Shown: piece by piece, positions 15,940 through 25,849 of the stretch
Layout: every line of letters begins with the position of its first letter
How positions within the stretch are numbered: position 1 is the first letter of the stretch
Source: Nitrosopumilus ureiphilus
GTDB taxonomy: Archaea > Thermoproteota > Nitrososphaeria > Nitrososphaerales > Nitrosopumilaceae
Direction: 5' to 3'
Assembly (NCBI RefSeq): GCF_013407185.1
Contig: NZ_CP026995.1
Coordinates: forward strand, 1,261,913-1,325,912
DNA length: 64,000 bases
The notes under the pieces: model-generated
What the model saw: the letters and a program-made list of their open reading frames with translations, nothing else
What the model was told of the DNA's origin: nothing
Databases searched by the model: none
Translations under genes and position numbers: made by a program

Positions 15940-15956
15940 TTATCGACTATCAGTAA
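15940..15956 (+). repeat. Casposon target-site duplication, left copy
   Basis: The 17 bases TTATCGACTATCAGTAA directly precede the left terminal inverted repeat and recur exactly at 25571-25587 in the same orientation. The identity runs on for three more A bases, which may belong to the inverted repeat, so the duplication is 17-20 bp. Confidence 0.9.
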
Positions 15957-16010
15957 AAATGGTATCCCCCCGATTTGGGAAGGAAAACATGCTGTGTTGT
16001 CGTAATGCTT
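15957..16010 (+). repeat. Casposon terminal inverted repeat, left
   Basis: A 54-bp sequence starting AAATGGTATCCCCCC. Its reverse complement is found at 25517-25570 with a single C/T difference. The stretch is markedly more GC-rich (runs of C and G) than its surroundings. The left-most cargo gene stops 11 bp inside it. Confidence 0.95.
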
Positions 16011-16020
16011 AAGATCTAAA

Positions 16021-17778
16021 CTATTTTTTTAAGTCTAATTTTTTTAAAATTTCATCTATTTTTTCAATAGCCTTTTTTGTATGTAAGGGGATGATAGCTT
16101 TTTCCGGATTGCTGAAAACAGATCTTTGTTTTAATATTACACATAATTCAAGAATCTCATCACGTAATTGTGGATCTAAAAATCCTATGGACAAGTTGAT
16201 ATTTCTTTCAATTGTCTCTACCAGTAATTCTTTGTAAGACTCAGCTTGACTAATTAGAGCACTATACCCCACTTCTTTACTCAAATCCTCCACATATGGT
16301 TCCTCCATGGTGGTTTTATTGGGGTCGTTGTAAATTGCAACAAATTTCTCAATATCTGGGAATAATTTTTGCAATCTATCGATTTGAAAACGTAAACTTA
16401 GAAGTGTATAGTTTTCTTGTTTTAATCTCTCTTCTTTAATTTGGGTCAATGTGTTACTTGTTTCGGATGCTATTCCTTCAATGTTCTTAGTTTGTTTATC
16501 GATTTCCTTTGTTTGTTTAGAAATTTCTTTTTGTTGTTTACTGAATTTCTTATTTCTTGAATCATCAAAAATCCAAACTAACCCTACTATGATAATTCCA
16601 ATTCCTATTTCCACAATCATTGTACTCCAATTCGCCATGTCATTTCCATCCCAGACAGACATTTCATTTGCTAATAAGGGGACAATTAACAGAGTTAATG
16701 AAATAACAAAAAAACCCGTGTAGGATACCATGAAAATTTTGGAATGGATTATTCTTTTTCCTAATTTCTCTTTCTTAGTAGGATCGGGCTCTGTTTCTTC
16801 ATCATCTTGATCTTTTCTATAGTTGTTATAACTAATGTATAATGTTAGACTTACAATTCCAATAACTGCAATTAATAGAATACTTAATCCAACAAAGACT
16901 AGAAAGGATTGTATTTCACCAATTTTTTGATCTAAATAATTTACAGTGGTTTTCCCAAATAGATTATCAGATTCTATTTCTAAAACATTTCGATAACTAT
17001 CGCGTGATTTTTTATAATATTCTAGATTATTTTCTTTATCTCCTAATTCCAGATACAGTAAACCTTGATTGAGTAATGATTGGATATTATCAGGTTCTTC
17101 ATTGACGGCTCTCACAAAAAATTCTTCAGCTTTTTTTAATTCACCTTGTTTTGCATACAAAACACCTTGGTGGGTTAAAAGATTTGGATTATTTGCGTCA
17201 ACCTTAAATCCAATATCCAATAGTTTTTGCGACTTATCATATTCTTCACGTTCATTATGTAATGCAATTACATTTTCTAAAATTTGAAAATCGTTATTTT
17301 TTTCATAAAGAACTTGCAGTTTTTGAAACAATTCTTCATTATTTGGATCTAATGCAAGTTGTATTGTGACATATCTGGATTCAGCTTTTTCACTTTTTGG
17401 ATATAGGGTAAATGCTTCCCAAAAAGCATATTTTGATTTTTCAAGATCATTGTTTTTAGCATGATATGAACCTAAAGTAAGCAAAACAAGTAGATCTCCG
17501 GAAACTTCCGAAGGTAAATTATCCAGACAACTCTTTACTTCATTCAACGGCAAATTTGCATTTAACTGAAATAGACATTTCATAGATTTTGCATCCACAT
17601 TTTTAGGATATTTATCAATAATCTCTTCAATTTTTAATAATCCTGAATAGTATTTTTCTTGTTCTTCAAACTCCTTAACTTGTTGTAACAATTCCTCCAA
17701 ACTTGGTTCAGACTGAGCAAATATGTAACCTGTGGGAATTAGTAGTAGAAAAAACAAGCAAACAAACCGAATTTTCAT
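16021..17778 (-). CDS. Secreted/membrane TPR protein of the casposon
   Basis: A 585-residue protein. Residues 1-22 are a signal peptide (FLLLIPTGYIFAQ). Residues 30-275 are tetratricopeptide-like repeats predicted outside the cell. Transmembrane helices lie near 290-316, 349-371 and 386-405, followed by a repetitive coiled coil (KQQKEISKQTKEIDKQTKNI, about 414-434) and a cytoplasmic helical domain to the end. The stop is 11 bp from the left inverted repeat. No catalytic motif is seen. It could be an effector, receptor or surface factor; the function is unknown. Confidence 0.8.
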   Translation of the reverse strand: MKIRFVCLFFLLLIPTGYIFAQSEPSLEELLQQVKEFEEQEKYYSGLLKIEEIIDKYPKNVDAKSMKCLFQLNANLPLNEVKSCLDNLPSEVSGDLLVLLTLGSYHAKNNDLEKSKYAFWEAFTLYPKSEKAESRYVTIQLALDPNNEELFQKLQVLYEKNNDFQILENVIALHNEREEYDKSQKLLDIGFKVDANNPNLLTHQGVLYAKQGELKKAEEFFVRAVNEEPDNIQSLLNQGLLYLELGDKENNLEYYKKSRDSYRNVLEIESDNLFGKTTVNYLDQKIGEIQSFLVFVGLSILLIAVIGIVSLTLYISYNNYRKDQDDEETEPDPTKKEKLGKRIIHSKIFMVSYTGFFVISLTLLIVPLLANEMSVWDGNDMANWSTMIVEIGIGIIIVGLVWIFDDSRNKKFSKQQKEISKQTKEIDKQTKNIEGIASETSNTLTQIKEERLKQENYTLLSLRFQIDRLQKLFPDIEKFVAIYNDPNKTTMEEPYVEDLSKEVGYSALISQAESYKELLVETIERNINLSIGFLDPQLRDEILELCVILKQRSVFSNPEKAIIPLHTKKAIEKIDEILKKLDLKK

Positions 17779-17839
17779 ATCTTTCTAACAATCAACTAAA
17801 ATTTAAATCCGCACCGTTATCTATTTAGCTAAGTTTCAC

Positions 17840-18127
17840 GTGAAGTATCATAGAGGTATCATGAAATACATCGTTTCAGTATCAAAAACCTATATTCATA
17901 GAGGAAATCACAGACACAAAAAATCTACAAAGAAGAAATGGCACATTTACTATTATGATGAGGAAGGAAATTTCAAAACAAAACGAGTCAGTTTTTTTCA
18001 AGCATTATTTTACAAGACTCAGAAAAGAAAGAGAATAAAGTATTGGTGTGCAGAATGTGATAATTTCTTTATAGGTTTGGTAAAATCACACAAAGAAGAA
18101 CTGGACTGTCCTAATTGTTTAGAATGA
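17840..18127 (+). CDS. Small basic zinc-ribbon protein of the casposon
   Basis: A 95-residue protein; a start at the Met seven residues in is also possible. The N-terminal two thirds are strongly basic and aromatic (HRGNHRHKKSTKKKWHIYYY). The C-terminus has CAEC and CPNC pairs about 21 residues apart, a zinc ribbon. This composition suggests nucleic-acid binding. It is divergent from the membrane TPR gene and convergent with the winged-helix gene, which it approaches within 7 bp. Confidence 0.65.
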   Translation: MKYHRGIMKYIVSVSKTYIHRGNHRHKKSTKKKWHIYYYDEEGNFKTKRVSFFQALFYKTQKRKRIKYWCAECDNFFIGLVKSHKEELDCPNCLE

Positions 18128-18134
18128 CTATTGA

Positions 18135-19034
18135 TCATTTCTGATCAGATTCTTCCACTGCTTGATTTATTTTAGAAACAGTATCAAACATGGAAACAAC
18201 TGTGGAACCCTGTGGATTTAGAGACACCATTGTGTCTAAGACCTGTTTTGGAATCCAAGTGCAGAGAAGTATCCACAAATAAGATTCAAAATCTGTTTCT
18301 TCAGATGACGAATAATGTCCATTAAACTTTTTTTGTATGGACTCTTGAAGATCTTGGTATGATTGAAAACCTTCTTGTAACCCATCAAGTATTTCCTTAT
18401 CCCATATTTCATAAGATTTAATGAATTTTGGATCATTTGAAAAAAAATCAAAACATTTCACGAGTCTCTCAAAAACCTTTTTCTTGGTGAATGGCTTTGA
18501 AATTTTTTCTAAAAACTCATCTTCGTAATCTTGTATAATTTCTCTATAAAGATCCGTTAAACTGTCAGGTTCTATCTTCCCTTCATGGATTCTAGTCTGT
18601 ACAACAGATGCATAAAGTGATAATAATCCAGTCAAATTATCGCCAAAATGTACCTGATTATAAGGTATTTTTGATAAAATTGACGGATTGCACCAATGGG
18701 AAAAGACTTTCTTGAATAATTCAGATTCCAGAGTGCATCTTAAGTAAAATTTTATAGAATCATCTAACTTTTTGTGGTGTATTTTTAGAATTCCTTCAAG
18801 ATAAGTGATCAACGGTTCAATATTTACAGAATAAACATTTTTTTCATTTTTTATGATAAATCCTTGATTTTCCAGTTTCCTAAGATTTTGGTATATTTTT
18901 GCAGTTGAAGGGTTTTTTTTCTTGCCGTATACAATTTTTGCCAATTCATAACCATTAACTGGTTTAACATAAAGAGCCCAATAGATTTTTGATGGAATTC
19001 CTTCCATAAAGGGAGATTCAATCTTTGCTGGCAA
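18135..19034 (-). CDS. Winged-helix transcriptional regulator of the casposon
   Basis: A 299-residue protein. Residues 10-75 are a winged helix of the PadR/MarR style: IYWALYVKPVNGYELAKIVYG, IYQNLRKLENQGFI, then a wing ending NVYSVNIEPLI. Residues 85-299 form a long helical domain without recognisable motif, perhaps for dimerisation or ligand sensing. It is transcribed divergently from the polymerase operon starting at 19,144, so it may control element replication genes. This is inference from position. Confidence 0.7.
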   Translation of the reverse strand: MPAKIESPFMEGIPSKIYWALYVKPVNGYELAKIVYGKKKNPSTAKIYQNLRKLENQGFIIKNEKNVYSVNIEPLITYLEGILKIHHKKLDDSIKFYLRCTLESELFKKVFSHWCNPSILSKIPYNQVHFGDNLTGLLSLYASVVQTRIHEGKIEPDSLTDLYREIIQDYEDEFLEKISKPFTKKKVFERLVKCFDFFSNDPKFIKSYEIWDKEILDGLQEGFQSYQDLQESIQKKFNGHYSSSEETDFESYLWILLCTWIPKQVLDTMVSLNPQGSTVVSMFDTVSKINQAVEESDQK

Positions 19035-19143
19035 CTAAGTATATCAAAAACGACAACCTATGAAAGACTTCGGGAACATAGTACCTATTTTACTCTAAAG
19101 TGCCTTAGGAAGTTATATTTTTTAATTTGAAAATTGTTTTGAT

Positions 19144-19521
19144 TTGAAAAAAATAAATAAATTACAAAAGCAGTTGGAATCCGTAAAAACTGAATTGGGT
19201 AGACTATTACAATTTAGAGAAACATCAGCATTAAAAAAATTCAAGCGTCAACTCGAAGGAGAGAAAAGTAATATCTTATCTGAAATAAAAAAATCAACTC
19301 AAACCAAGGCAGAAAAAGAAAAACAAAGACAACAAAAAAGAACAGTTGCAAACAGAAATAGAAGTTCCAAGAACAAACGAGTCTGGAACTATGTCAAATC
19401 AATTCAAAAAAACTATTATCCTAAAAAACCTCTCAAAGAAATCAGAACATCACTAAGAAAACACAGGCAAGGACTAGACAACGATGTATCAGACGTTGCA
19501 TGGAGGAATCCTAGCCCATGA
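19144..19521 (+). CDS. Basic coiled-coil protein upstream of casposon PolB; terminal-protein candidate
   Basis: A 125-residue Lys/Arg/Gln-rich protein starting at TTG. Residues 1-75 are a long coiled coil (INKLQKQLESVKTELGRLL); residues 76-125 are basic with Tyr and Ser (WNYVKSIQKNYYPKKP). Its stop overlaps the polymerase start by 4 bp (ATGA), so the products are made together. In phage phi29 the terminal-protein gene directly precedes the polymerase gene. A priming role is plausible but not shown by any motif; it could instead be a polymerase accessory or DNA-binding factor. Confidence 0.7.
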   Translation: MKKINKLQKQLESVKTELGRLLQFRETSALKKFKRQLEGEKSNILSEIKKSTQTKAEKEKQRQQKRTVANRNRSSKNKRVWNYVKSIQKNYYPKKPLKEIRTSLRKHRQGLDNDVSDVAWRNPSP

Positions 19522-21374
19522 TTCCAACATCAAACGCCAAAACACTTGATGGCATTAGAATGCGTAAACAAAACCGAAATCTCAATTCTTCAAAAGATCC
19601 TCGATATGTAGTTGGGATAGATACTGAAACTGAGAATGGAGATATCTTTCTTATTGCAGATTCTGATGGAAATTACCTTGATGGAAAAATAACATTTGAT
19701 GGTATAGCAGAGTTTCTGTTCCGACATGAATATGAATGGATTTTCTTTTACAATTTATCTTATGACGCTGAATGTATTCTAAAGTTACTCCCTGAAGAAA
19801 TACTGATACAGTACAAATGGAAAAAAGAACTACGATTCCAATACAAAAAATATAAAATTCATTATATCGATAGAAAGAAACTCACAATATCCAAAGGGAA
19901 TCACTCTATTTCCTGTTACGATATAGCACAATACTATGACAACAAATCACTTGATGTTGCATCAGAATCTGTTGGATTATCCCTTGATCAAGAATATTTG
20001 GATTTGAAGAAAAACAGAAAAATTTTCTCAAAATTCTATTATTCTCGAAACAAACGTCAAATTCGTGCCTACTGTATCAAAGATTGTAGGCTTACAAAGG
20101 AGTTATCAGAATATTGGATTGGGATATTTGAGACAGTATTCTCATTTTATCCCAATAACTGGATTTCAGCAGGGTATCTGGCAGAAAAGGTTCTGATTAA
20201 CAATGACATTCCAATTCCTCTATTCAATGAATTGCAATACCCAATACAAGAGATTGCCCGAAGTTCGTTTTATGGTGGACGATTTGAGTTAATCAAAAGA
20301 GGATACATTGGAGAATGTTACCTGTATGATCTAAACTCTGCATATCCGTATGCACTAACTACAATGCCTGACATCACTCAAGGAAAGTGGTTTGAATCAA
20401 AAAAGATTCATCCAAAATCAAAGATTGGCTTCTTTTTCATTGAAGCAAACATTTCAGACAAAGTAAAGATTGCACCATTTCCATTTGTAAAAAAGAATAG
20501 AACCATTTGCTATCCTTCTGGTAAATTCAAGACATATGTTACACTAGATGAATTACTCATGGTAAAAGGAGATCCTGAAATAAATTATAAAATATTAGAT
20601 TCATGGCAGTTCATTCCAAGGAATAATTGCACATATCCTTTCAAGAACTTTATCAAAAAACAATACTACAAAAGATTAGAACTAAAAGAAGAGAACAATC
20701 CATTAGAGAAAGCAATCAAGATAGTATTGAATTCCATATATGGTAAGATGGCACAACGTACCAATAATGTTATCGGGAATTTATTCAATCCCGTAATTGC
20801 ATCTTACATTACAGGATACACAAGACGACAACTCTATGAATTTACAAAGAAAAACAAACTTGATAACTTTGTTGTGGCATATGCAACAGATTCTGTTGCA
20901 TGTCAAAAGAAGATAAAAAACCTTGACAGCAAAAAACTAGGAAAAATGAAACTTGACAAACAGGCAGATGATGTGATTTTTCTCTCAAACGGATTCTACA
21001 AATTCAATGGAATCTGGAAGAATCGTGGTATAGGATATGACAACGAAAGAAAAATAGAGATTGAGCATTTAGAAACCAGAGTCAAAAAAGACGGTCAGTT
21101 ATACATCGGAGTGAAATCCACTAGAACCACCCACATAAAGTCAGGGATTTTGTATAACAGGCTCAAAAAAGTGGGTAAAATTGAATCATATGAGAAGAAA
21201 ATTGGGCTGAATTCAGATAAAAAAAGACTATGGGATTCAGATTTAGAATCTCTGAATAGTAAAATGATGTGTGATTCTCTTCCAATTCCTGCAGATTTGG
21301 TAGGGGAATTGATTGGAAAAGAGGATTTGGAATGGTATGACGATGAAAAGTATGAACCTGAAAGTGAATTATGA
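19518..21374 (+). CDS. Casposon family B DNA polymerase, protein-primed type
   Basis: A 618-residue compact PolB. Exonuclease motifs: I, GIDTETE (Asp35, Glu37); II, FFYNLSYDAECI; III, YCIKDCRLTK. Polymerase motif A is YDLNSAYPYAL (Asp271), motif B is KIVLNSIYGKMAQR and motif C is VAYATDSVA (Asp458). The region between motifs A and B is long enough for the TPR inserts of protein-primed enzymes, and a downstream NGFYKF matches the KxY-like motif. The usual DTDS of motif C reads ATDS, so the first Asp is replaced by Ala. It would replicate the casposon. It shares little with the host polymerase at 9,054. Confidence 0.9.
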   Translation: MIPTSNAKTLDGIRMRKQNRNLNSSKDPRYVVGIDTETENGDIFLIADSDGNYLDGKITFDGIAEFLFRHEYEWIFFYNLSYDAECILKLLPEEILIQYKWKKELRFQYKKYKIHYIDRKKLTISKGNHSISCYDIAQYYDNKSLDVASESVGLSLDQEYLDLKKNRKIFSKFYYSRNKRQIRAYCIKDCRLTKELSEYWIGIFETVFSFYPNNWISAGYLAEKVLINNDIPIPLFNELQYPIQEIARSSFYGGRFELIKRGYIGECYLYDLNSAYPYALTTMPDITQGKWFESKKIHPKSKIGFFFIEANISDKVKIAPFPFVKKNRTICYPSGKFKTYVTLDELLMVKGDPEINYKILDSWQFIPRNNCTYPFKNFIKKQYYKRLELKEENNPLEKAIKIVLNSIYGKMAQRTNNVIGNLFNPVIASYITGYTRRQLYEFTKKNKLDNFVVAYATDSVACQKKIKNLDSKKLGKMKLDKQADDVIFLSNGFYKFNGIWKNRGIGYDNERKIEIEHLETRVKKDGQLYIGVKSTRTTHIKSGILYNRLKKVGKIESYEKKIGLNSDKKRLWDSDLESLNSKMMCDSLPIPADLVGELIGKEDLEWYDDEKYEPESEL

Positions 21375-21376
21375 AA

Positions 21377-23029
21377 TTATCCTGTAATTTTCTTGAATTC
21401 TTCATTTTCGAGTAATGCAGAAAATGTTTTTGCTTTTTTTGCTTTTTCTTTGTAATTCACATCTTTTTCTATTGAATTCTTTAACAATTCCATTGATTCT
21501 GAAGTATTGCCTTGAATGTATTTTATCAATGATTTTTTGAAATATGCCTCAGGAATATTTGAGTTGTATTTTAAAACAGAATCAAAACAACAAAGTGCTT
21601 CATCATATTTTTGTAATCTACATAATGCATCACCCTTACGACCTAATGCCTGCAAATGATCAGGTTTTAATTTAATTAGTTCGTCGAAAGTTTGAATTGC
21701 TTTGTTAATATCTAATTGAATTAAAGAAGTGGCTTTATGTAATAATGCCATTTGATGTTCGTTTTCAAATAGAAGAATTTCTTCAAAACATTTCACGGCA
21801 TCTTCATATTTTTTTTCGTTTTCTAAAATAATTCCCTTGTTTCCTAATACCTGAAAATTCAACGGATCTAACACAAGTGTATCGTCAAAAATTTTTATGG
21901 CATCATTAACTTTTCTGTTTTTAATATATTCTTGTGCTTTCTTCAAAAATTCTTCTACTTTACTTTCATCTATTTTTTGAATTTCTTCAAAGGATAATGT
22001 TTTAGCAAATTCTTCATCTATTTCTTCATCATCTATCAGTTTGTCTATTATGTTTGAATCAAAATTTTCATTAGAATAATCATAATCAGTAGTTTTGTAA
22101 TTTTTTAACAAATTCAAAAAATCTAATCCTGATTTGAGGGCATCAATGGTTTCTTGTTGATCAGGTTGGTGTCCTGCATGGACTACCCGATGCCTTGTTT
22201 CCTTACATTTATTGTTCCAGTTTTGACATGTTGATTCACCAGTAATAGTATCAAATGTTGCTGCACGTAATACTGGTTTTATTACATCCCAGCGATATCG
22301 TGGAAATTCAGAAATTGAAGGATTATTCACATTAGCAGCGTCAAGATATGCCTGTACGGATGACGGATCAGTACTATTCAAGTCATTCAAATACGTTCTA
22401 AGAATATCTGATAGAATTATTTCAGCTGAAGTTTGAATTTCAACACATGCTAATCTAAAATTTCTGAATCCAAAGTAATCAATTGAATTTTTGGCTAGTT
22501 CGCTAACAAATGGAAAAGATTTTTCATTCATTAAACTCTCTTTGATTGAACCTATTTCCGCATCTGATAGATTTGACTTTCCTCCAATCTTTATTGCTCC
22601 TTTGGATGAAAAAGTCCAGCCACCTAATTCATTGTGATTTTCATCAAAATAACGATACTTGATAGCAACTACATCTTTTCGAAGTATGTCATGATTGAAA
22701 AATTCATTTGATTTCCATCTACACGTATTTAGAATTTTGTTTAACGCATCAAGGGAATATTTAGTACATATTTTTTGAATTTTTTCCTCTTCAAATTCTA
22801 CTGGGTTTGAAAAAACAAATCGTGTAACACATCTGCTATAATTGGTGTGTCCGAATCTATCTTCAGAAATCCTTGGATTCCCATACCATCCTGAAGCATT
22901 ATCTTTTGAGATCTTTTTTGCAAGATATACCATGCATGAATATTTTGAATTTTTGACAGAATATGGATTATCTGGAAGGTCAATTTGAAATGGTACATTA
23001 AATTGAACTCTGATTTCTTTTAATGGCAT
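21377..23029 (-). CDS. HEPN-like (RxxxxH) protein fused to TPR repeats
   Basis: A 550-residue protein with three parts. Residues 1-160 form a beta-rich N-terminal domain without recognised family. Residues 165-310 are helical and contain KETRHRVVHAGHQP, where Arg279 and His284 give the Rx4H motif of HEPN ribonucleases; the surroundings resemble Apea-type HEPN domains. Residues 355-530 are at least five TPRs (AIKIFDDTLVLDPLNFQVLG; AVKCFEEILLF; AIQTFDELIKLKPDHLQALG). It is convergent with the polymerase gene, 2 bp apart. Likely a defence or toxin-type RNase triggered through the TPRs, by inference. Confidence 0.75.
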   Translation of the reverse strand: MPLKEIRVQFNVPFQIDLPDNPYSVKNSKYSCMVYLAKKISKDNASGWYGNPRISEDRFGHTNYSRCVTRFVFSNPVEFEEEKIQKICTKYSLDALNKILNTCRWKSNEFFNHDILRKDVVAIKYRYFDENHNELGGWTFSSKGAIKIGGKSNLSDAEIGSIKESLMNEKSFPFVSELAKNSIDYFGFRNFRLACVEIQTSAEIILSDILRTYLNDLNSTDPSSVQAYLDAANVNNPSISEFPRYRWDVIKPVLRAATFDTITGESTCQNWNNKCKETRHRVVHAGHQPDQQETIDALKSGLDFLNLLKNYKTTDYDYSNENFDSNIIDKLIDDEEIDEEFAKTLSFEEIQKIDESKVEEFLKKAQEYIKNRKVNDAIKIFDDTLVLDPLNFQVLGNKGIILENEKKYEDAVKCFEEILLFENEHQMALLHKATSLIQLDINKAIQTFDELIKLKPDHLQALGRKGDALCRLQKYDEALCCFDSVLKYNSNIPEAYFKKSLIKYIQGNTSESMELLKNSIEKDVNYKEKAKKAKTFSALLENEEFKKITG

Positions 23030-23108
23030 TTTGTTAGTTTGTTGGACTTCATAATAAAGTGATATTTAATTTTGAAATACTTAAGTTCATAAATTTTAAT
23101 AAACTTCC

Positions 23109-23753
23109 ATGACTAATGGGGATTGGAGTTTTAAACAAAGTAGAGAACAAGCAAAAAAGGCAATTGCCAATCTACTAATCAATGCAGAAGAGTATCTAAA
23201 AGATGCAAAATTAATGTATGAAAACAAGAGATTTCACCACATTTCACTTCCAATAATTTTTGCTATTGAAGAGCTAGGTTCTTGTAGAATAATCCTTGAT
23301 AAACTAAAAAACACTGCAGAAGAAATTGAACTGAATAACTATGATGGATTGTACAAACATCAAAAAAGTATTGATAAAATCAGAAATGAATTAGAAATTT
23401 CTGATGAAAAGAAAAATTGGTTACAAGATGTATGGAAAGGATTTCCATTTTTTAGTCCTGTTGCAGGAAGGGTATTTGAAAATGATGAAGCAGAAAAAAT
23501 GAGATTGTTTGCACAGGAGTCCATGAGTAAAGAGACAGCAGACAAATTCAAGAATCTGTATGATGATGAATTAAAAATTCACTTGGAAAAAGGGGCTGAA
23601 ATGAGAATCAAAGATTCATTTGTATCATTTGATCATAAAACTGGAGATTCCTCCCTTGGAACTCCGATGAATCAACATTATGCAGAGGTAAGAGTTGGAG
23701 CAGTTGAAAAAATGATTCAAAAATTCAGAATTGAATTAGAGGGTATTAAATGA
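23109..23753 (+). CDS. AbiV-like abortive-infection protein
   Basis: A 214-residue helical protein. Residues 12-66 match the AbiV pattern: a helix with INAEEYLKDAKLMYENKRF, then LPIIFAIEELGSCRII with the diagnostic I-E-E-L-G. AbiV proteins have a HEPN-related fold and block phage translation in Lactococcus; archaeal members are not characterised. The C-terminal half has a helix-rich stretch and AEVRVGAVEKMIQKFR. Its last 8 bp overlap the 3' end of the convergent cas1 gene. Role as casposon-borne defence is inference. Confidence 0.75.
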   Translation: MTNGDWSFKQSREQAKKAIANLLINAEEYLKDAKLMYENKRFHHISLPIIFAIEELGSCRIILDKLKNTAEEIELNNYDGLYKHQKSIDKIRNELEISDEKKNWLQDVWKGFPFFSPVAGRVFENDEAEKMRLFAQESMSKETADKFKNLYDDELKIHLEKGAEMRIKDSFVSFDHKTGDSSLGTPMNQHYAEVRVGAVEKMIQKFRIELEGIK

Positions 23754-24768
23754 CAAACTCTTTTTCTTTTCCTGAACAATATTCTGCAAGATTTTGAGAA
23801 GCAATCTTTACAATTGTAATTTCTTGAACTGATTTCAAACCTGATTTTGTCTTCTTACCATGTCGAAAACCATATTTTCTTTCTTGGCGAAACTGTCTAT
23901 CTAACATCTCCAAAAATCTCTTGATCAGAGAAGAATCCATCACAACATTTCCATCTCTGGTATGAACAAATTCTTTGAGTTTGATTCTATGTCTTTTACT
24001 TGAATTATTTGCTATGGAATAAACTGAATAATCTACTAACCATCGAAATGGTTCAATAATATCATAAACTAATGGTTGAAATCCTGTGTGGGAACGATGC
24101 ATGAATCCAAAGTAAGGATCCAGACCAAACCCACAAACAAATTTGGAAATCTCCCCTGCCAATACAGAATAGCCATAATTTAACAAGGCATTGATGATAT
24201 CTGTTGCATTGTTCTTACTGGTGCGGATAAATGACTGATTTCTGGAATTAAACCCATATCTTTCAGGAATGAATTTGGCATATTCTGCAAAGTGGATTTT
24301 GCTTGCAAGATGTTCCTTTTCTGGTAATGATACAACATCACTGCCAATTAACTTGAGTAGTTTTAGTTGAGATTCTTTTTTAGCAGTTAGAATTTGCTTT
24401 GTTAGATATTCGCATTTTGTAGGATCTCTGAACGTATCATACTGTGCAATTCTGTATTTTGTTCCAGTAAGAGAATCCATCATGGAATTGCAATATGTTA
24501 TAGGTTTGCCATATGTGTCAACTAGAATTACATTTCGATTATTTTGAGAAAGTAGTGATAAGGCTTCAGTAGAGACATAGCCTTTTCCTGAAAGAATTAT
24601 TTTCTCATATGGCATGTTCTTGACAAACCACACTTCTGATTCTTGTTCTCCTGTAATGTCATGTCTGCCATTTTTTAGAATTAGTTTTGAATTTTTTACA
24701 GAAATGGAATGTCCATATCCTCGAAGTAGTTTTACATTGTAATGATTTCTTTTGTTTTTTAATGTCAT
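23746..24768 (-). CDS. cas1: Cas1-family casposon integrase (casposase)
   Basis: A 340-residue Cas1. The N-terminal beta domain ends with SLLSQNNRNVILVDTYGKP; the helical catalytic domain carries Glu162 in FAEYAKF, LLNYGYSVLAGEI, GLDPYFGFMH (His224) and the acidic motif YDIIEPFRWLVD (Asp236, Glu239). These are the metal-binding Cas1 residues used by casposases for TIR integration. The C-terminus is basic (RQERKYGFRHGKKTKSG) and may bind DNA. No cas2 or CRISPR array is nearby, consistent with a transposase role. Its ATG overlaps the stop of the cyclase-like gene by 4 bp, so the two are one operon. Confidence 0.95.
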   Translation of the reverse strand: MTLKNKRNHYNVKLLRGYGHSISVKNSKLILKNGRHDITGEQESEVWFVKNMPYEKIILSGKGYVSTEALSLLSQNNRNVILVDTYGKPITYCNSMMDSLTGTKYRIAQYDTFRDPTKCEYLTKQILTAKKESQLKLLKLIGSDVVSLPEKEHLASKIHFAEYAKFIPERYGFNSRNQSFIRTSKNNATDIINALLNYGYSVLAGEISKFVCGFGLDPYFGFMHRSHTGFQPLVYDIIEPFRWLVDYSVYSIANNSSKRHRIKLKEFVHTRDGNVVMDSSLIKRFLEMLDRQFRQERKYGFRHGKKTKSGLKSVQEITIVKIASQNLAEYCSGKEKEFVI

Positions 24769-25490
24769 TTACAAGATACGTATTTTAAAAATTCAATAGT
24801 ATTTCTTATCTTTAAAGATGCTCCAAGATCAGTAATTGAATTCAACTCATTCTCAAAAATTTCTACTAATTCATGTTTTTTTGAAACACCAAAATTTTCT
24901 TTATAGACATTCTTACCCCATCCCAAATCTAATCTACTCGGATAATTAATTGCAATTCCTTTCTCCACACCAATTTTTAATGGAATATCGTAATCTGTAA
25001 AAATTGTCTCATTATATTTTCCATTTAATTTTTTTTCTTTTCGCATTTGTTTAACCATGTTGTAAACACTAGGACTAACAGAAATACCTGCCCAATTTGG
25101 CATTGTATGATATTCTGCTGCTTCATCTATAGCTTTACCGATAATCATTTTATCACTTGAAAATATCTGACCTACACTCATACATCCTCGTAAATAGATT
25201 CCTTGTGAAATAGCCTCTAACATAACTAATGCAACATTATGTGCGGCAGCTGTTAAAACTGAACTCAGATTTTTTCCTGTATTTTTAATTATTATTGTAT
25301 CTGAAAATGCAATTAGTTTATTTTGAAAATCATCATTCTCACCAGGTGATTCATAATTTTCTTTCCAACTACTTGTTAGTTCTTCCCATGATTCGACATA
25401 TTTTTTGACATCTTTTACTCTATTCCATATCCCCTTAGTTCCTAATGCATCAAGAATTACAATTACGCCCGTTTCTTCTTCTACCGTCAT
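24765..25490 (-). CDS. Class III nucleotidyl-cyclase-like protein of the casposon
   Basis: A 241-residue single-domain protein. The layout matches the class III adenylate/guanylate cyclase fold: VILDALGTKG (metal Asp14), then IAFSDTIIIKN (second metal Asp64), then GIYLRGCMSVGQIFS (conserved R-G and G-Q) and MIIGKAIDEAAEYHTMPNWA leading to GISVSPSVY. Both candidate metal Asp residues are present. No sensor or transmembrane domain is attached. Similar stand-alone cyclases act in bacterial Pycsar defence, producing cyclic pyrimidine nucleotides. Substrate here is unknown. It is the first gene inside the right repeat and overlaps cas1 by 4 bp. Confidence 0.7.
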   Translation of the reverse strand: MTVEEETGVIVILDALGTKGIWNRVKDVKKYVESWEELTSSWKENYESPGENDDFQNKLIAFSDTIIIKNTGKNLSSVLTAAAHNVALVMLEAISQGIYLRGCMSVGQIFSSDKMIIGKAIDEAAEYHTMPNWAGISVSPSVYNMVKQMRKEKKLNGKYNETIFTDYDIPLKIGVEKGIAINYPSRLDLGWGKNVYKENFGVSKKHELVEIFENELNSITDLGASLKIRNTIEFLKYVSCK

Positions 25491-25516
25491 AACTTATGAA
25501 AAATATCTATGCAAAA

Positions 25517-25570
25517 AAGCATTACGACAACACAGCATGTTTTCCTTCCCAAATTGGGGGGATACCATTT
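25517..25570 (-). repeat. Casposon terminal inverted repeat, right
   Basis: Reverse complement of the left repeat over 54 bp with one difference. Its inner edge is 26 bp from the start codon of the cyclase-like gene, so it must overlap or closely border that operon's promoter. Confidence 0.95.
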
Positions 25571-25587
25571 TTATCGACTATCAGTAA
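25571..25587 (+). repeat. Casposon target-site duplication, right copy
   Basis: Exact second copy of TTATCGACTATCAGTAA. The chromosomal sequence beyond it contains a short hairpin, ACTGC-TAG-GCAGT at 25602-25614, which would have stood next to the target before insertion. Confidence 0.9.
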
Positions 25588-25849
25588 AAAGGGAAAGCCC
25601 CACTGCTAGGCAGTAAAAGTGTGATATAACCTAAATCATAACGAAAGATTGTTGAAAATAATTAGAACAAAAAATTGTTCTTAGGATTTTAGATTTTTTA
25701 AAGATTTTACTTTGAATGAATATTTTTCCTTTTAATTTTCTGTGCAACAAAATAGATTTTTTTGACAACAATAAATTGACTTAATACCTAAGTTAATGAA
25801 GATGGGCATATTCCTTGCTCAAAAGAAGATATCATGACCTGACATTGAA

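Follow-up and report, generated by a model that had tools for sequence, protein, structure and literature searches.

The gene at positions 24765-25490 (minus strand; 241 aa) of the window, as we call the 64,000-nucleotide stretch of Nitrosopumilus ureiphilus DNA analysed here, encodes a cyclase-like protein whose subfamily, a branch of the class III nucleotidyl cyclase fold that carries no name, has no classification in the libraries searched. The gene sits in a variable slot coupled to the cas1 gene of a casposon. We somewhat favour the reading that the protein is slot cargo and serves a DNA-sensing conflict system as a cyclase-fold module that binds metal and NTP. Neither the fold nor the element is of a new kind; what is new is an unclassified subfamily with a distinct active site, together with the cas1-coupled cargo slot.

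The open reading frame proved to be real. It starts with ATG and lies on the minus strand, which the initial annotation had not given, and the plus strand over the same interval is full of stops. The gene is located upstream of cas1 (23746-24768, minus strand; Pfam Cas_Cas1, 3.6e-39), with a 4-bp overlap between its stop and the cas1 start, as had been described. The initial annotation had called the gene fused into the cas1 operon; translational coupling through the overlap stands, but the fusion is not literal, as this is a separate gene. It is the last gene inside the casposon before the right TIR, with about 27 bp between its start codon and the TIR's inner end. The promoter of the cyclase-cas1 operon is therefore probably inside the TIR.

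The host element had been named a casposon, which was borne out: it is a TIR-bounded, 9.6-kb casposon of family 1 (15954-25573) with a Cas1 casposase, a protein-primed PolB, TIRs and a target-site duplication. The left TIR (57 bp; 15954-16010, plus strand; TAAAAATGGTATCCCCCC...) showed a gapless inverted match to the right TIR (25517-25573, minus strand), with a score of 54 over 57 positions. The direct repeat at the left junction, TTATCGACTATCAGTAAAAA (15940-15959, plus strand), is a target-site duplication overlapping the TIR end, and the identical 20-mer is present at the right junction (25571-25590, plus strand). Just outside the right TIR, at 25571-25625, TAAAAAGGGAAAGCCCC resembles another casposon end (cf. 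the TIR of locus L074, TAAAAAAGGAAAGCCCCCC), and a tandem or nested casposon insertion is possible there.

At the left end, the casposon encodes a 585-aa protein with TPR repeats, two transmembrane helices (2TM) and a coiled coil (16021-17778, minus strand; Pfam TPR_1, 1.1e-8). This is followed by a small zinc-ribbon-like protein (17840-18127, plus strand) with homologs of 73-78% identity in casposon loci L063, L067 and L069, and by a PadR/TrmB-like winged-helix protein (18135-19034, minus strand) with a weak match to Pfam PadR (1.8e-4, below the cut-off). The protein-primed PolB (19518-21374, plus strand; Pfam DNA_pol_B_2, 8.6e-22) is preceded by a conserved small gene (19144-19521, plus strand), homologs of which are present in most of the family 1 casposons fetched; its product is a candidate terminal protein, an idea taken from Krupovic 2014 (PMC4046053). 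A TPR protein in which an internal HEPN-like motif, RHRVVH, was recognised by eye (21377-23029, minus strand; Pfam TPR_2, 1e-14) and an AbiV-type HEPN protein convergent with cas1 (23109-23753, plus strand; Pfam HEPN_AbiV, 5.2e-8) lie between PolB and cas1. AbiV-type HEPN proteins were seen at different places in two casposons, namely here and in the cas1-coupled slot at L065:3706-4302 (E = 6e-20). The window casposase was 84% identical to that of genome G385. Cas1, protein-primed PolB, TIRs, target duplication and element-specific genes are features that the window element has in common with the thaumarchaeal casposons of family 1 (NitAR1-C1 and others; PMC4046053, PMC6563490), and a cyclase goes unmentioned in the main text of these two papers.

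The same genome contains a second casposon remnant on contig 1 at about 355.5-357.2 kb (L010:5499-7217), in which cas1 is split by a frameshift and the PolB region shares 68% identity with the window PolB. At two other sites, L011:4025-4612 (about 1062 kb) and L012:4481-5264 (about 982 kb), similarity is confined to the TIR of the casposon and a short cas1 fragment; these sites look like casposon remnants or miniature derivatives.

We surveyed the casposase loci of Nitrosopumilaceae and relatives, comprising 19 casposases including that of the window, plus a broken sister copy. A same-strand ORF ending -32 to +11 bp from the cas1 start was found at 16 of the 19 casposases (17/20 with the broken sister copy), the exceptions being L063, L072 and L075. 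This slot gene was the last before the TIR wherever casposon TIRs were recognisable. Apart from the pair L067/L070, the slot products were mutually unrelated; they included a RiboL-PSP-like HEPN protein (L064), an AbiV HEPN protein (L065), a GNAT acetyltransferase (L073), an HNH nuclease (L074), a DUF922 protein (L071) and multi-TM proteins (L067, L068 and L070), the others being unknowns. In the frameshifted sister casposon of the same genome, whose cas1 product is about 85-86% identical to that of the window, the slot holds a broken 2TM gene with a 4-bp overlap, and the cyclase-like gene of the G051 casposon occupies a place other than the cas1 slot. The initial annotation had suggested looking for cas1-cyclase pairs in other casposons; the slots surveyed there held unrelated genes. 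Because the occupants are unrelated across casposons, the cas1-coupled variable slot, which is described here from this survey, would appear to be a cargo exchange site with the cyclase-like gene as one of many tenants. The cyclase-like gene is very probably cargo rather than an integration factor. Two loci in the survey had unusual arrangements: genome G051 carries two casposases within about 30 kb (L068 at about 1076 kb and L009 at about 1107 kb), with the ef-2 gene marking the end of one casposon, and in L070 (genome G374) about 1 kb separates two divergent casposases.

The fold of the cyclase-like protein was examined with an AlphaFold (AF2) model built from five sequences (the window protein and four relatives), which had a mean pLDDT of 75 and a pTM of 0.78. 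In a Foldseek search against the PDB, the top 40 matches were without exception structures of class III cyclases (best E = 1.1e-5), and the model thus indicates that the protein almost certainly has the class III cyclase fold, as the initial annotation had supposed. Of the structural likenesses raised there, that to class III cyclases held, whereas the PycC structure 6YII, which is the Pseudomonas aeruginosa PycC of clade A (PaPycC; PMC11224242), appeared only at rank 38 (E = 1.1e-3). A fold search of BFVD returned a single significant viral match, to a Harvfovirus response regulator, and was uninformative.

When Pfam, NCBIfam, PADLOC and the PDB were searched by sequence, nothing above threshold was obtained for the cyclase-like protein, and homology was therefore shown through the fold and a two-step profile chain. 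PF00211 matched neither the protein at E up to 1 nor the family members scanned, and the mCpol domain PF18182 likewise had no Pfam match in either. By hhalign, the cyclase-like family matched a bacterial plasmid family, here named after its FIDILGF motif (probability 98.5, 2e-15, 213 columns), which in turn matched the canonical PF00211 cyclases of thaumarchaea (probability 87, 4.5e-6). Direct profile comparison of the cyclase-like family with thaumarchaeal class III cyclases was weak (P 0.03); this alignment placed D14 and D64 onto the metal Asps and the GKAIDEAAE segment onto GPAMNIAAK. The plasmid family (L107-L113; FIDILGF...FSDS...GPA) consists of hypothetical proteins widespread on bacterial plasmids. 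Those scanned match no Pfam or NCBIfam model; the family comprises class III cyclase homologs without the catalytic Arg. It shares the metal Asps and the absence of the Arg with the window family, but it has its own PRI and AYxLE motifs as against IDEAAE and W-GIS and forms a separate clade (96/96). Its member in Agrobacterium fabrum adjoins AbiEii, AAA-ATPase and UvrD-helicase genes.

The motifs read in the initial annotation, D14 (VILDALG), D64 (FSDTIII), R101-G102...G107-Q108 and G118-K119-A120, were each found in the protein. Among 19 homologs from Thaumarchaeota (Nitrososphaerota), Poribacteria and Bacteroidota, D14, S63, D64, T65, R101, G102, G118, K172 and K227 were invariant (19/19), and the motif residues are therefore not due to chance. 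In alignments with PF00211 proteins, D14 and D64 fall on the metal Asp pair; the loss of this pair in homologs had been named as evidence against a cyclase, and all 19 retained it. The position of the transition-state Asn (D122 in the window protein) was occupied by Asp in 15/19 and by Asn in 1/19, and that of the transition-state Arg (126) by Arg or Lys in 0/19. Identity among the relatives is only about 25-35% across phyla, yet the metal and basic residues are strictly conserved. Judging from these alignments, the metal/NTP site is under strong selection and the textbook cyclisation residues are missing; the protein may carry out an altered chemistry, or may bind NTP alone. Because both transition-state residues (Asn and Arg) are gone, it is doubtful that the protein makes an ordinary 3',5'-cNMP. 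Compared with class III cyclases (PF00211; human sAC, mycobacterial Ma1120), the window protein has the same fold, strand and helix order, two metal Asp and motif order (D..., D..., (R/K)xG, G-[PK]-A), but differs in the absence of a PF00211 match, in the replaced Asn (mostly Asp) and missing Arg, and in the additional invariant K172 and K227 and a C-terminal helical extension. The host genome also encodes two canonical PF00211 cyclases (L084 at about 1088 kb and L085 at about 2138 kb), in which the transition-state Arg is changed to Lys.

Besides the window protein, the family has members in other Thaumarchaeota (Nitrososphaerota), in one Poribacteria MAG and in Hufsiella (Bacteroidota). The distribution was patchy, with the family present in 20 of 400 genomes of the order (about 5%) and broken copies in genomes G438 and G573; viral contigs and the phage collection yielded no relative at the sensitivities used. 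In the tree, the window protein was placed in a clade with Mrr_N fusions and the L029/L127 fusions (82/84; with L130, 90/90). One Mrr_N-cyclase fusion (L009, genome G051; Mrr_N, 1.7e-21) is encoded in a different casposon, and a divergently oriented gene for an N6/N4 DNA methyltransferase lies about 130 bp away. The other (L128, genome G604; Mrr_N, 8.3e-23) adjoins genes for a C5 methyltransferase, an HhH-GPD protein and DrmA, DrmB and DrmC (PADLOC E = 0, 9.5e-173 and 3.4e-42, respectively). At L128:119-9398, the fusion gene takes the place in this DISARM-like cluster at which one might expect a restriction enzyme. The two fusions have a common ancestry (99/96), their Mrr_N parts are 41% identical and the neighbouring methyltransferases are unrelated; they represent one fusion event, and the methyltransferase adjacency thus rests on two loci. 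The arrangement of an Mrr_N-cyclase beside a methyltransferase was not found in the literature searched.

A similar Mrr_N in L019 (genome G136) is followed by an ordinary Mrr nuclease region, as read by eye, which indicates that the cyclase fold of L009 and L128 replaces the nuclease. Accordingly, these two fusions have the Mrr_N sensor of the Mrr restriction endonuclease (Mrr_N plus nuclease), beside DNA methyltransferases, but with a cyclase fold for the nuclease domain, whereas Pfam detected neither Mrr_N nor a nuclease domain in the window protein, and the window casposon has no methyltransferase. L019-L024 were considered as cyclase relatives and rejected because their matches were confined to the N-terminal extension (Mrr_N); L019, the one that was read, is an ordinary Mrr. 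In L029 and L127, a 200-aa N-terminal domain is fused to the cyclase fold; its assignment as a tyrosine recombinase was dropped after a sub-threshold Pfam match (E = 0.009) and a profile comparison with P 0.24. The Hufsiella member is located among ABC-3C-like genes (DUF2326 ATPase and SMEK protein), and in a Fusobacterium relative TPR repeats precede the cyclase-fold domain. Many stand-alone relatives (L131, L132 and L146-L153) have no obvious defence neighbour. The 2.1-Mb Fusobacterium vincentii "plasmid" record L080 (NZ_CP084075.1) looks chromosomal, with housekeeping genes around the match.

The initial annotation had proposed a possible Pycsar-like defence, with the membrane TPR protein at 16021 as a candidate receiver. 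Under such a scheme, an active cyclase would supply a cyclic mononucleotide to a membrane or TIR effector, of which this TPR-2TM protein would be an example. The window protein has the class III fold and the metal Asp pair in common with PycC (6YII, 7R65, EaPycC and AnPycC; PMC11224242), 6YII is among its fold matches, and a 2TM protein is encoded within the window casposon and another within the G051 casposon; however, we now regard such a system as very improbable. The cNMP-binding domain PF00027 was absent from the whole host genome (99.8% complete), although control genomes were positive in 11 of 14 cases, which speaks against a Pycsar-type receptor of cyclic mononucleotides. The PADLOC cyclase models did not match, the one PADLOC-DB hit being to PDC-M13C (E = 0.0076); among the casposon proteins scanned with Pfam, none had a TIR or CNBD domain; no PycTM or PycTIR gene adjoins the cyclase-like gene, and the transition-state pair is missing. 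The TPR-2TM gene lies at the opposite end of the casposon and does not adjoin the cyclase-like gene. Its 2TM stretch is common to L009:5061-5741 (E = 1e-9) and L062, and the 2TM domain occurs in 28/250 Nitrosopumilaceae genomes, two of which have the cyclase-like gene as against about 1.1 expected (hypergeometric p = 0.31). As the domain does not track the cyclase-like gene, the TPR-2TM protein was rejected as its dedicated receiver. Panoptes (mCpol plus 2TM-beta; PMC12657230) likewise has a palm enzyme of cyclase type encoded at the same locus as a 2TM protein, but in the window there is no mCpol Pfam match, the fold is class III and not the Cas10 palm, and no link emerged between the 2TM and cyclase-like families. 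A pseudo-enzyme, that is, an NTP-binding but non-catalytic class III relative acting as a nucleotide sensor or scaffold, is possible though on the unlikely side. It would explain why the metal Asps are kept while the Asn is lost in 18/19 and the Arg in 19/19 homologs, and the related plasmid family also lacks the Arg, but the invariant R101, K172 and K227 fit a re-tooled active site equally well as a binding-only site.

Regulation of transposition had been offered as another role. A casposition regulator would act with Cas1 and tie integration or excision to nucleotide levels, which would agree with the translational coupling to cas1, with a promoter region apparently within the TIR and with the DNA-binding domain of the fused relatives. 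Yet unrelated proteins fill the same slot in other family 1 casposons, the closely related sister casposon has a 2TM gene there, and the G051 casposon carries its cyclase-like gene at another place. With the slot so variable, nothing specific to the cyclase-like protein is needed beside cas1, and we consider a regulator of this kind highly unlikely; an integration-specific role of any sort has an equally slight chance. We give as little credence to a neutral hitchhiker that has no conflict role and is kept through its coupling to cas1. The patchy distribution and the broken copies would suit a hitchhiker, but the strict conservation of metal and basic residues among such divergent relatives shows functional selection.

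We therefore return to the reading of the cyclase-like protein as slot cargo in a DNA-sensing conflict system. Considered by itself, a conflict or defence role is probable; the link to defence is one of guilt by association, since casposons, plasmids and DISARM clusters accumulate any cargo. Foreign DNA would be detected by a sensor, which would be the fused Mrr_N in the relatives and a partner in trans for the window protein. Detection would change the activity or NTP occupancy of a cyclase-fold dimer holding Mg-NTP, with the invariant R101, K172 and K227 presumably handling the triphosphate. The output would be either a nucleotide product read by a non-CNBD protein or a conformational signal. 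The protein would neither drive nor specifically regulate casposon integration; as casposon cargo, it would protect the host, and hence the element, against other elements. A narrower and rather unlikely proposal is restriction-like immunity with a signalling output, in which the methyltransferase would mark self, Mrr_N would read the mark and the re-tooled cyclase domain would make a nucleotide-derived alarm, the window protein being a stand-alone output module. If this restriction-like reading is true, casposons would be carriers of exchangeable defence genes.

These findings point to an uncharacterised class III branch, present in both archaea and bacteria, in which the active site is altered and some members are fused to DNA sensors next to methyltransferase genes. 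The cas1-coupled slot provides a systematic route to casposon cargo, part of which is HEPN/Abi-like, and makes it possible to test whether relatives of the CRISPR integrase ancestor still carry defence genes.
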